In this document: in pieces, positions 16,973 through 20,497 of the stretch
Layout: each line of letters opens with the position of its first letter
Position numbering within the stretch: position 1 is the first letter of the stretch
Assembly (NCBI GenBank): GCA_002730035.1
Contig: PBYU01000094.1
Coordinates: forward strand, 62,001 to 126,000
Length of the DNA: 64,000 bases
Direction of reading: 5' to 3'
From: Gammaproteobacteria bacterium
GTDB lineage: Bacteria > Pseudomonadota > Gammaproteobacteria > Pseudomonadales > Pseudohongiellaceae
Program-made: the position numbers and the translations under genes
Notes under the pieces: generated by a model
What the model was told of the DNA's origin: nothing
Databases searched by the model: none
What the model saw: only the letters and a program-made list of their open reading frames with translations

Positions 16973-18118
16973 CTATCGATCGCCCGGTGCCATATAGAAC
17001 CAGATCGGTCGCTTCTCACCCGACGCCTGCATCGCAGCCCTTGCAGCCAGCAGAATTTCACCGACTTCGGTCTCACCGAAGAACCAGTTCGTGCCGGCCC
17101 ACGCTGCCGGTATATGATCGCTTAAACCGAGGGCAGCAAGCTCATAATAGCCGCGAATGTCCTGTGCAACTCTAGACGGGATTCCTGGAATACCCGCCTG
17201 CTTCCACGGCGTGCCATCCACTACCCTTATCAGCGCTTCGATGGCGCGTTCCAGTTCATCGACACTAATTACCCGACCCGTGCCAGCGCGATTACCATAC
17301 CTGGCTATGCCGCGGTCATAGGCGGGTCGCAGTCCGCGGAATTCGTCGATAACCGCAGGCAGCTCCTCGTTTGAGCGAGGCGGTAACGGGCAAGCCAGCC
17401 CTTCCGCGCCGCCCTCTTCGACGGACTCCGCAAATTCTTCCAGCACCGGCTGTTGCGCTTGCAGTAGTGAAAATGCATGACTCAGAACTCGGTGTTGAAA
17501 TTCTGCATCATCGGGTTTTCCTAACGGGCGTCCCAGGGGAAAATCGCATAGCAAACCACGCGGTGGTGCCGTGCTCTCGATTTGTTTCCGCACCGAACCC
17601 AGTGCAACAGTGGCTATACCTGCAGTCTCGAATATGTGCGCTAGCGTACTCACGGTACGCGTGCAAAGAGGTCAGACCGGGGTGAAGATTACAACGTCGA
17701 CACCGGATTCCTTCAAAAATTTGGCACCGGCCGGCCCGCTGTCCGTGCGTATGGCACTGAGGTCGAACTGGTTGCCCGCATAGGACAGGTGGATATCCGA
17801 CACCTTGCCAATCTTGCCGACGGCTTCGAGTTCATCGAGGCGATCCAATGGAATCACCGTATTGAAATCCGCGGCGAAACCAATAGCGTCGAAATTCGGG
17901 CTCCAGTGACCGGTCTGATAATCCCGCTTGCGGTTATCCAGCACCCGGTAACCGACATCGGCCGGCGCAAAATCTTCCTGTCCTTCATGGTGTAGCGAAG
18001 CGGTACTTACGATAGCGACCGTAGCCTCGCTCAGCTCCGGCGGCTGTGTGAAGGCGACCTGTTCGAATACCGGCGCCTCCATGTCTTCCGCCATGGCTTT
18101 CACTTGCGTATCTGACAT
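16973..18118 (-). CDS. probable selenoprotein: glycine/sarcosine/proline reductase B (GrdB/PrdB)-like protein
   Basis: One continuous frame of 381 residues if UGA at 17672-17674 is read as selenocysteine (Sec149). The sequence across it is GVDVVIFTPV-U-PLCTRTVST, i.e. a UxxC redox motif at the place where GrdB/PrdB-family proteins carry Sec or Cys. Upstream half: ATVAIVSTASLHHEGQEDF, RDYQTGHW, DFNTVIPLDRLDEL and LSYAG, matching the family order. Downstream half: HIFETAGIATVALGSVRKQI and LCDFPLGRPLG. Homology therefore spans the UGA without gap. A SECIS-like hairpin follows (next entry). GAGGG precedes the ATG at 18118. No GrdA/GrdC partner is nearby, so the substrate is unknown; aerobic relatives are uncharacterised. 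Without Sec machinery it would be a nonsense-split gene. Confidence 0.8.
17644..17674 (-). promoter_or_regulatory. UGA selenocysteine codon with bacterial SECIS-like hairpin
   Basis: On the minus strand the UGA (17674-17672) is followed after 11 bases by GCGUAC-CGUGA-GUACGC: a perfect six-pair stem with a five-base loop. Counting U of UGA as 1, the loop occupies 21-25 with G22 and U23, close to the essential loop G/U at 23-24 in E. coli fdhF. The loop-to-UGA distance and a G within the first two loop bases meet the published rules for bacterial SECIS elements. A weak lower helix (UGC/GCA) can extend it. Confidence 0.72.
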
Positions 18119-18218
18119 GTTAACCCTCGCTTAACTAATTCTTATGCTCTATTCGTACTGTGGCCTATACTACCTTGCTTGCTGGAGTGTTCCTATTCAT
18201 TAGCCACGTAGAGATATT

Positions 18219-18641
18219 ATGAAAGTAGAAAACAAGCTACATCCAGACAGTGATCAAATGCAGGGATTTCAGGAAGGGGATCTGGATACGCCGATCTTCA
18301 TGGTGAACCTGCTCAAGTTCAAGGACAAGGCCGAGTATGGGGACGGTCGTGAAACCGAGGCCAGCGGTGCGGAGGCTTATGGCATCTACGGCAAAGAAGT
18401 GCAGGCCCACATCGAGAAAGTCGGCGGCAAGAGAGTCTTCGGTGGTAACGTAAGTCGCCTGATGCTGGGCGAAGTGGAAGAGTTGTGGGACATGGTGGCT
18501 ATCGTCATGCACCCCAGCAGGAAAGCCATGCTTGCCATGATTCAGGATGCGGCCTACCAGGCGAGTGCGATCCACCGCACGGCAGGTCTTGCCGGGCAGC
18601 TGAATATCGAAGTCAAGGGATGTTCTTTCTTTGAGGAATAA
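18219..18641 (+). CDS. DUF1330-type small alpha/beta-barrel protein
   Basis: 140 residues. The core FMVNLLKFKDKAEYGDG, with AYGIYGKEVQAHIEKVGGKRVFGG after it, is the standard start of DUF1330-like dimeric alpha/beta-barrel domains; the later run VAIVMHPSRKAMLAMIQDAAYQ is the usual fourth strand and helix. Cytoplasmic, no signal peptide. Function of the family is unknown. It is divergent from the selenoprotein gene, 100 bases away, and could share its regulatory region. The start ATG at 18219 is the only reasonable one. Confidence 0.85.
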   Translation: MKVENKLHPDSDQMQGFQEGDLDTPIFMVNLLKFKDKAEYGDGRETEASGAEAYGIYGKEVQAHIEKVGGKRVFGGNVSRLMLGEVEELWDMVAIVMHPSRKAMLAMIQDAAYQASAIHRTAGLAGQLNIEVKGCSFFEE

Positions 18642-18724
18642 AAGCCTGGCTAGACTCCGGTCAGATCAAGCAGATTGCTTAACGCATTGAGCGCCGGTGG
18701 ATAGTGTGCCAGTTTGGCCGGGGC

Positions 18725-18776
18725 CAAAAAGAAAAGGGGCCCAGAGCAGTGATACTTCCCTGCTCTTGGCCCCTTT
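18725..18776 (-). terminator. strong intrinsic terminator
   Basis: Near-perfect stem: AAAGGGGCC-AGAGCAG at 18733-18749 pairs with CTGCTCT-GGCCCCTTT at 18760-18776, with a ten-base loop and one mismatch. Read on the minus strand it follows the NIPSNAP gene stop (18793) by 17 bases and runs into TTTTCTTTTT, so it terminates that gene; the stem could also slow plus-strand transcription from the DUF1330 gene. Confidence 0.88.
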
Positions 18777-18792
18777 GTTGATCTCGAGTTGA

Positions 18793-19251
18793 CTACTTCA
18801 GATTGGAATAGTTCGTCGAGCTCATCATATAAGATTCGATAGAGATGCGAACGGCGTACTTCTGTCGCAAGGCTTCCCAGGCTGGATCCGCGGCGAATCC
18901 TGCCCACACCTGCTGCCTGTGTGCCCGGTCGCGATACGCCAGCATCCACACCAGTGTGTTGGGATCATCTAGCCGCTGCCATACGGCAACAACTTCAGCA
19001 CCGTGTTTTTCAAAGATCGCCACTTCCTCTTCTCTGAAGCGCTGATGCAGGTCATCGATGCCACCCTTGCCATCGACCGCAGCCTGGGCAGTGTACATGC
19101 GAAGCTCGAAGCAGCGAGCATCAGTACCTACATTCTTCGAAAACTCGGCGGACAAGTCTCCAGCTGGACCACAGGGTTGTGGTGCTTCTCCGGCATTGGC
19201 AAATCCAATAAGCCCGAAACTCATGATGATTGTTAGAATTATTTTTTTCAT
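18793..19251 (-). CDS. secreted NIPSNAP-family protein
   Basis: 152 residues with a signal peptide (MKKIILTIIMSFGLIGFANAGE). The mature part carries the NIPSNAP pattern: FELRMYTAQAAVDGKGGIDDL, FREEEVAIFEKHGAEVVAVW, NTLVWMLAYRDRAHRQQVWA. NIPSNAP domains are small dimeric ferredoxin-like barrels; bacterial exported members have no established role. A relative is at 28027-28455 and a wrecked one at 36123-36356. It is followed by a strong terminator and appears to be a single-gene unit, with the exported methyltransferase-like gene 62 bases upstream on the same strand. Confidence 0.88.
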   Translation of the reverse strand: MKKIILTIIMSFGLIGFANAGEAPQPCGPAGDLSAEFSKNVGTDARCFELRMYTAQAAVDGKGGIDDLHQRFREEEVAIFEKHGAEVVAVWQRLDDPNTLVWMLAYRDRAHRQQVWAGFAADPAWEALRQKYAVRISIESYMMSSTNYSNLK

Positions 19252-19313
19252 ATTTCTCTCCTGTATGTTTTGCGCTATCCAACGCGGCCAAATTAATCTA
19301 TTCGTACGAAAAC

Positions 19314-20081
19314 CTATTTTCGATATAAAACTACAAACTTACTCGTCTGACCCTGTATCGAAGGATCAAACACGCTGTTGTCCAGTGGGTCGTCAGCATT
19401 CTTGTGCAAATTGGAGCTTCTAGTCACACTCAGCCCTGCCCTTCCAGCAAGGTTGGCTACAACCCCTTCGCCGATACGGTGCAATGTCCCACCCACTTCA
19501 GGGCCGGCGCTCGTCTCTGCAATATGGTCTACCACCAGAAATACACCGCCCGGTTTTAGCACTCTGGCGATTTCCTGGAAAGATCCTGCGGGGTCGCCCA
19601 AGGTTACATTCTCACCAGGCGCGAACCAGAGTTCATGGGGACCCATAATCCAGGTCACCATATCGACAGAATTGTCTGGGGCATCCAGCGCATCGAAATT
19701 AGTCTTACTCAGCCTGACATTGGGCAAGCGATTCCCTGCCACTCGATTGTCTGCTGCTTCGCCGAAGAAGCCATCGAACGCACCCGGGTTCTGCATGATG
19801 ACACTGCCGGCCGCACCCACTGTACGACTCAGTATTTCAGTGTAATAACCCCCACCGGCCTCCATCTCGAGTACCGTCATGCCTGCTTCGATACCGGCGA
19901 ACGCGAGTACCTCTAATGGCATGCGCCTGCCGTCATCGGCAGCATCTTCACTCGGCCGATCGCCATGAATCAGCGCATTGGCTACCAAATCGGCAGAAGT
20001 CCCGTCTGCCAGTGTGAATGAGCTAAAGACCAGCAGGCTGCTTCCAGCCAGGGTGATAAGTAGCTGTCTGAATTTGTTCAT
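19314..20081 (-). CDS. exported class I SAM-methyltransferase-like protein
   Basis: 255 residues. A clear signal peptide (ITLAGSSLLVFSSFTLADG) precedes a Rossmann methyltransferase domain: motif I appears as VLEMEAGGGYYTEILSRTVG, the middle strand as DMVTWIMGPHE, and motif IV/V as ARVLKPGGVFLVVDH. Motif I has an extra Ala in EAGGGY where many have EIGxGxG. SAM is not expected in the periplasm, so the protein may use another ligand or be a non-catalytic descendant; that is inference. Homologues with signal peptides are common in marine proteobacteria and annotated as predicted methyltransferases. It may be co-transcribed with the NIPSNAP gene downstream. Confidence 0.85.
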   Translation of the reverse strand: MNKFRQLLITLAGSSLLVFSSFTLADGTSADLVANALIHGDRPSEDAADDGRRMPLEVLAFAGIEAGMTVLEMEAGGGYYTEILSRTVGAAGSVIMQNPGAFDGFFGEAADNRVAGNRLPNVRLSKTNFDALDAPDNSVDMVTWIMGPHELWFAPGENVTLGDPAGSFQEIARVLKPGGVFLVVDHIAETSAGPEVGGTLHRIGEGVVANLAGRAGLSVTRSSNLHKNADDPLDNSVFDPSIQGQTSKFVVLYRK

Positions 20082-20197
20082 GAGTTACTCCTGTCTCGAT
20101 TTGCTTTTAACGAACCGCAGATTCTTATTGATCGCGGAGGCATCCCTCCGGTTAAGTCCAGGGAGCCACTGATTAAAGGACAAATTCGAAGAAATAG

Positions 20198-20497
20198 CTA
20201 TAGCTGTTCCGGCCAAAGCAGGTCCGAGGGGTGGGGTACGCGGGAGACCAGCGGGATCACCCTGGGAATATAAAGCTCTGTAAAAGCCTTCGCCTCGCGG
20301 TGTCTGTCCAGGTGTTCCTGGGTCTCCCATTGTTCGACTAGAAGAAATTGTTGCTGGTCTGCCTGAGAATGGTAAACCTCGAAGCGCATACAACCCTGCT
20401 CATCGCTTGAGAGCCTGGCCTGTTCTTGTAACAGTATCTTCACTTCATCCACGTCACTTGCTTTGGTGACGGTTAACATTACATTGTTGTAAATCAT
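20198..20497 (-). CDS. ABM-domain (antibiotic biosynthesis monooxygenase-like) protein
   Basis: 99 residues: VTKASDVDEVKILLQEQARL, GCMRFEVYHSQADQQQFLLV and EQWETQEHLDRHREAKAF, the ordered motifs of the YgiN/ABM small monooxygenase fold. Members oxidise quinols or aromatic compounds without a cofactor, or act as ligand-binding dimers. The gene starts 4 bases after the stop of the XRE-type regulator, so the two are translationally linked. The start ATG at 20497 lacks a strong ribosome site of its own, consistent with coupling. Confidence 0.86.
   Translation of the reverse strand: MIYNNVMLTVTKASDVDEVKILLQEQARLSSDEQGCMRFEVYHSQADQQQFLLVEQWETQEHLDRHREAKAFTELYIPRVIPLVSRVPHPSDLLWPEQL

Follow-up and report, generated by a model that had tools for sequence, protein, structure and literature searches.

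PrdB and GrdB function together with a pyruvoyl protein (PrdA and GrdE), and a pyruvoyl protein is named in the annotation of the prd cluster of Terrisporobacter. In the available text of two reviews, D-proline reductase corresponds to TIGR04483 with a UxxC motif (PMC13188914; PMC9312934), and five proline reductase selenoproteins are listed in the accessible part of a survey from 2006 (PMC1794560). The initial annotation of the locus described herein held that selenocysteine (Sec)-containing members of this family are best known from anaerobic Stickland fermenters and that the present gene lies in an aerobic setting. The aerobic setting fits, as described below, but Sec-containing PrdB has already been reported from seawater: the available text of the Sargasso Sea survey gives 42 Sec genes for PrdB with the motif UXXC (PMC1088965), and that of the GOS survey gives 235 PrdB sequences under pfam07355 with UxxC (PMC2398784). 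Thus, according to these texts, Sec-containing PrdB with UxxC has been known since 2005 and ranks among the selenoproteins with the highest abundance in seawater. These marine proteins share Sec and UxxC with the present gene, but in the available text of both surveys they are given without long and short subtypes, and no C-terminal domain is mentioned. Likewise, no description of a long form with such a domain was found in the accessible open-licence literature, and proline reductase is not mentioned in the available main text of the deep-Sep paper (PMC12013277). The new part is the long subfamily carrying this additional C-terminal domain. In addition, an operon with GrdB-like components has been proposed to encode a fluoroacetate reductase, according to the available text of that report (PMC10838667), and by analogy it is suggested that GrdB-like systems may be able to change substrate.

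A reading frame across the UGA codon

The features of the locus are given below, with positions in the window, which is the whole stretch of 64,000 nucleotides that was analysed.

16973..18118, minus strand: complete gene, 381 codons long, containing one in-frame UGA (Sec149) and ending with the stop codon at 16973-16975
18124..18128, minus strand: Shine-Dalgarno-like GAGGG, 5 bases 5' of the ATG, read from the sequence
17450..18118, minus strand: PrdB core, residues 1-223, aligning with nearly all of Terrisporobacter PrdB, Sec on Sec
17672..17674, minus strand: UGA at codon 149, predicted to encode the selenocysteine of the UxxC motif (U149-P-L-C152)
17644..17660, minus strand: SECIS-like hairpin with the six-pair stem GCGUAC/GUACGC, the loop CGUGA and G22-U23
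16976..17446, minus strand: helical domain at the C-terminus (residues 225-381), without a Pfam match

Under the standard code, the locus is divided into one ORF of 148 aa (17672-18118) and another of 226 aa (16973-17653), which the initial annotation had taken for one frame split by UGA alone. First, the minus-strand reading from 18118 to 16973, with TGA counted as a residue, gave a frame of 381 aa whose only TGA is codon 149, and frame 1 of the plus strand over 16973-18118 contained many stops; the single frame and its coordinates were therefore correct, and the strand is minus. The same translation reproduced the proposed UxxC motif at the redox site, TPV-U-PLCTRT (in the longer stretch, VVIFTPV-U-PLCTRTVSTLAH). 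Second, a short-peptide pattern scan of the species genomes of genome_contigs revealed 11 near-full-length orthologues with 66-91% identity, whose record titles name nine Gammaproteobacteria or Pseudomonadales and two bins of Actinomycetes/Actinomycetota (labels as recorded). The TGA is the first in-frame stop at the site of codon 149 in 11 of 11 orthologues, and the frame continues beyond it; in the resulting 12 sequences, the part of the protein after the UGA is conserved nearly to the final residue. The proposed homology across the UGA thus held on both sides, and the alignment with PrdB spans the Sec. Third, Cys or U had been anticipated at column 149 of the homologues, and both were observed: a Sec codon in all 11 orthologues and Cys in the short Cys forms and in one long form (L095). 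As judged from these sequences, the locus is almost certainly a single gene in which the UGA "stop" is read as selenocysteine.

Another reading treats the UGA as a genuine stop codon with a switching role, in which case most of the product would be the 148-aa fragment and Sec would be inserted only rarely or under certain conditions. Termination at Sec codons under selenium shortage is known in bacteria, and the fragment contains the Pfam GRDB match at residues 10-146. However, a fragment without residues 149 and 152 is missing the redox site, and the conservation of the 12 sequences almost to the last residue after the UGA also argues against this reading, which we consider quite unlikely.

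Selenocysteine machinery and the hairpin behind the UGA

The genome comprises 3,957,445 bases in 107 contigs and is 93.46% complete. The selA, selB, selC and selD genes, which the initial annotation had recommended seeking, were all present above their cut-offs: selA at 559 bits, selB at 424 bits, selD at 285 bits in a long open frame, and selC (tRNA-Sec) at 65.7 bits, with a tRNA-Sec of anticodon tca also called by ARAGORN. In 14 control genomes, the selC, selB and selD searches gave matches throughout, so weak matches alone mean little; matches above the cut-off were obtained for selC in 5, for selB in 2 and for selD in 2 of these genomes, and selA matched in 4 and exceeded the cut-off in 1. 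The selD match (307 codons) is located inside a 755-aa open frame (L017, 1393-3660), and this SelD seems to be fused to another domain.

When numbered from the U of the UGA, nucleotides 15-20 (GCGUAC) pair with nucleotides 26-31 (GUACGC) around the loop CGUGA, with G22-U23 in the loop, exactly as had been described for the six-pair stem right after the UGA. The hairpin is present in the predicted fold, and the energy of the 61-nt stretch is unremarkable (z -1.18; 19 of 200 shuffles fold as well). Three observations nevertheless support its SECIS-like character. First, the codons are conserved beyond coding need. Across the 12 sequences (the window gene and 11 orthologues), codons +5 to +9, counted from the UGA, do not vary at all, and codon +4 is the same in 0.83 of the pairs, compared with an overall codon identity of 0.44 at position pairs with the same residue; agreement at the codons flanking the hairpin (+1 to +3, +10 and +11) ranges from 0.23 to 0.45. 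The top 10-codon window of the whole gene begins at the UGA codon (0.78 versus a mean of 0.44, sd 0.08). This synonymous freeze, restricted to the hairpin codons, indicates the footprint of an RNA element within the coding sequence.

Second, the stem covaries. In 18 sequences, hand-picked from 44 Sec sequences to cut near-copies, 95.4% of the cells are paired and 25 cells are changed on both sides, and neither value was reached in any of 500 shuffles; when the hairpin register was slid, 0 to 5 both-side-changed cells were obtained, compared with 25 in the true register. Two of five covariation measures in these sequences were not above the shuffles; pairs with a both-side change numbered 4 (equalled in 78 of 500 shuffles), and further pair types numbered 8 (equalled in 246 of 500).

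Third, the register is kept. All six pairs are formed in 58 of 73 Sec rows and five pairs in the other 15. These rows correspond to 69 loci and 62 distinct 45-mers, with four loci fetched twice (L020/L103, L027/L104, L026/L106 and L035/L107), and the Sec/Cys tally leaves out the partial L117, which has no motif, and the Cys form L085. G-U at 22-23 was observed in 71 of the 73 rows, and the two exceptions are full-length GrdB genes with the loop CGGUG. Among 20 Cys loci, none forms six pairs, 3 form five, 13 form four and 4 form three, and G-U at 22-23 occurs in five; the Cys forms retain this part of the pairing because the coding sequence is similar. In most long forms the stem is GCGUAC/GUACGC, and elsewhere CCAGAC/GUCUGG, CCAGUC/GACUGG, UCAAUC/GAUUGA and others are found in an unchanged register. 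Two long forms (L093 and L094) keep the stem GCGUAC/GUACGC with the loops AGUCU and GGUCU, and G-U at 22-23 is retained in both. A search of viral_contigs with a 32-base hairpin pattern gave no match. By every computational test applied, the locus is a selenoprotein gene.

A PrdB core with an additional domain

The initial annotation had described the protein as GrdB/PrdB-like. The PrdB part of this description stood. In comparison with PrdB from the annotated prd cluster on the Terrisporobacter petrolearius plasmid NZ_CP154617.1, residues 1-223 align at 31% identity with Sec on Sec, the UxxC motif is kept, and the HH and D-N-P-DRL-EL-G-IG patterns are in common; hhalign gave a probability of 99.5 over residues 1-215. 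The best NCBIfam match was PrdB (TIGR04483, residues 6-220), but its score of 105 bits is far from the cut-off of 300, and the gene has about 155 additional C-terminal residues. The broader TIGR01918 scored 51 against a cut-off of 65, and all five NCBIfam models that match the gene remain below cut-off. The GrdB part did not stand over the length of the protein. Pfam GRDB (PF07355) scored 33.9 bits against a gathering value of 22, and the UxxC motif is shared with GrdB of glycine reductase, but the match covers only profile positions 203-345 of 347 (residues 10-146 of the gene), the N-terminal half of GrdB being missing. Moreover, the NCBIfam profiles of full-length GrdB have 431-435 positions, and Sec lies near 350 in the full-length L115, in contrast to 381 aa and Sec149 here. 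Two full-length GrdB-type selenoproteins of the same order (L115 in G1100 and L116 in G979) have 432 aa, with the motif TSTUGTCT and 83 residues past the Sec; their hairpin is GCGUUG/CAACGC with the loop CGGUG, and G979 has a second match.

Residues 225-381 gave no match to Pfam even at E 10. When this domain alone was searched in the 398 genomes of the phylum sample, which included no other genome known to carry the long form, only its own genome matched. In the structural model (mean pLDDT 78), residues 225-381 are helical with mixed confidence, partly below 60, and Sec149 lies in the loop that joins strand 142-146 to helix 152-165, the first residue of which is Cys152. Foldseek returned no solved fold at E up to 0.001, so no function can be read from the fold. 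A search of solved structures by sequence yielded nothing usable: with E allowed up to 1, six chains were retrieved, led by 3t2l (E 0.0017, residues 25-75). The domain was also considered as a reduced PrdA and this was rejected, since hhalign against PrdA gave a probability of 0.1 and thus no sign of it.

A short "selenoprotein B family" of the same genus and of Alphaproteobacteria (e.g. L022) shares the core, the Sec/Cys site and, in its Sec forms, the hairpin register, but the short forms are mostly about 285-310 aa, are without the C-terminal domain and occupy a different side of the trees than the long forms; a Cys example is WP_207415257.1 of Roseomonas. Of 57 relatives searched in addition to the own genome, 28 match; each of their homologues contains one TGA, is about 285 aa long and shows 28-37% identity. 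Of these, 27 belong to the 36 genomes of the same genus, in which the short form was found in 27 and the long form in none, and therefore the long gene is patchy. Besides the own gene, the class sample (369 genomes, own included) contains two distant long forms, two short Sec forms and four Cys forms, and the phylum sample contains 15 Cys and two Sec short forms. The order sample (390 genomes) has long forms in at least eight genomes, own included, one of them a Cys form; this count is a lower bound, with ten matches without a locus left out. For two loci (L070 and L078), stops were reported within the matches; the genes themselves encode Cys and are free of stops up to their own end. In the tree, which was flagged for long branches, the 22 long rows fall on one side of a branch (100/99), and the Cys long form groups with three Sec long forms (98/98).

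Three genomes of family f288 in the order sample (G814, G936 and G1095) have three or four Sec homologues each, some of them long. With several Sec homologues per genome, long forms included, the long and short forms are likely paralogues with different tasks. Near the 28 loci of short Sec homologues (L020-L047), two gene clusters recur, in 18 and 16 loci, respectively; those members that were scanned encode alpha/beta hydrolases and HpcH/HpaI aldolases, which may hint at the pathway of the short form.

Partner, reaction and meaning of the long form

The initial annotation had suggested that partner and substrate may be new, and the idea of a new partner was strengthened by the present results. 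PF09338, the pyruvoyl protein of PrdA/GrdE, gave no match across the 93.46%-complete genome; an earlier genome search had no positive control, and in the control for the present search, the Terrisporobacter record gave three matches, one within prdA. No prd gene, GrdA (PF04723) or GrdC was found among nine neighbours scanned. Five COX1-family matches, all above cut-off, represent heme-copper oxidases in the genome, consistent with the aerobic setting.

The downstream neighbour is a predicted homoserine kinase, and the upstream neighbours at 18219-20497 of the window are DUF1330, NIPSNAP, a methyltransferase and an ABM-domain protein; the DUF1330, NIPSNAP and ABM-domain families are similar in fold. 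In a comparison of 11 orthologue loci with 20 proteins scanned, most neighbours of the window gene are also present in L048 (this record breaks off within the methyltransferase), and a NIPSNAP-type gene is also present in L049. Neighbours are shared by one clade (L051-L054 and L058), and one gene cluster, whose member in L057 is a luciferase-like monooxygenase, recurs in L055-L057. The other neighbours of the orthologues disagree, including TauD, PhyH, PQQ dehydrogenase, aminotransferases, SelO and acyl-CoA dehydrogenase. The neighbours thus agree little between lineages and provide no operon clue to the substrate. SelO, a protein adenylyltransferase, adjoins the long Sec gene in L049 (7152-8675) and, on a plasmid of Roseomonas, a short Cys form (L085, 6782-8254); this link was set aside as weak, the adjacency being seen only in these two loci and most other loci having short flanks.

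These results bear on the reading that the gene encodes a true subunit of D-proline (or glycine, sarcosine or betaine) reductase that works with a pyruvoyl protein of the PrdA/GrdE type from another locus. In its favour, no NCBIfam model matches better than PrdB, the alignment with PrdB extends over residues 1-223, and, with the genome 93.46% complete, PrdA could sit in the missing part. However, the score falls well below the cut-off, PF09338 was not found in either of two genome searches, the second with a matching positive control, the nine neighbours contain no prd gene, heme-copper oxidases are present, and the C-terminal domain is absent from PrdB. We therefore regard this reading as very improbable. 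A prdB gene on a plasmid of Peptoclostridium acidaminophilum (L089, 11923-12636) has no prdA annotated within 11 kb in an incomplete gene table, and orphan prdB genes may thus exist in an amino-acid fermenter as well. A pseudogene or sequencing error, with the UGA as a nonsense change or assembly fault between two ORFs separated by one stop, has a negligible chance and is, from the sequence comparison, in practice refuted by the orthologues, given the TGA at the same codon in all 11 further assemblies (66-91% identity), the conservation of the protein on both sides, the frozen hairpin codons and the full sel gene set.

Herein, we propose that the gene very probably encodes a genuine selenoprotein, consisting of a PrdB-derived redox subunit and a helical C-terminal domain common to the long subfamily, that acts without a pyruvoyl subunit; with no such subunit found in the genome, action without one is most likely. 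First, SelB on the hairpin just past UGA149 would deliver Sec-tRNA(Sec), resulting in the 381-aa protein. Sec149 would then attack or reduce an electrophilic substrate, either a small molecule or a protein disulfide, Cys152 would resolve the selenide intermediate, and a cellular thiol system would re-reduce the protein. The C-terminal domain would supply a substrate or partner site and, less certainly, might substitute for the partner. In other words, the protein is probably a stand-alone selenol/thiol reductase and not D-proline or glycine reductase; unlike for D-proline reductase, a PrdA-type partner was not found here. More tentatively, and with rather less than an even chance, the aerobic Gammaproteobacteria and the two bins labelled Actinomycetota might possess a PrdB-type selenol catalyst that has been freed of its pyruvoyl partner and equipped with a new helical domain, acting reductively on a substrate from outside amino-acid fermentation in a reaction beyond those of the known two-subunit enzymes.

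The abundant Sec-containing "PrdB" proteins of the ocean are still named after an anaerobic enzyme. Since no pyruvoyl partner was found in this genome and an extra domain is present, the name PrdB is probably wrong for the long subgroup, and the present locus provides an intact gene with which the real reaction of this subgroup may be tested.
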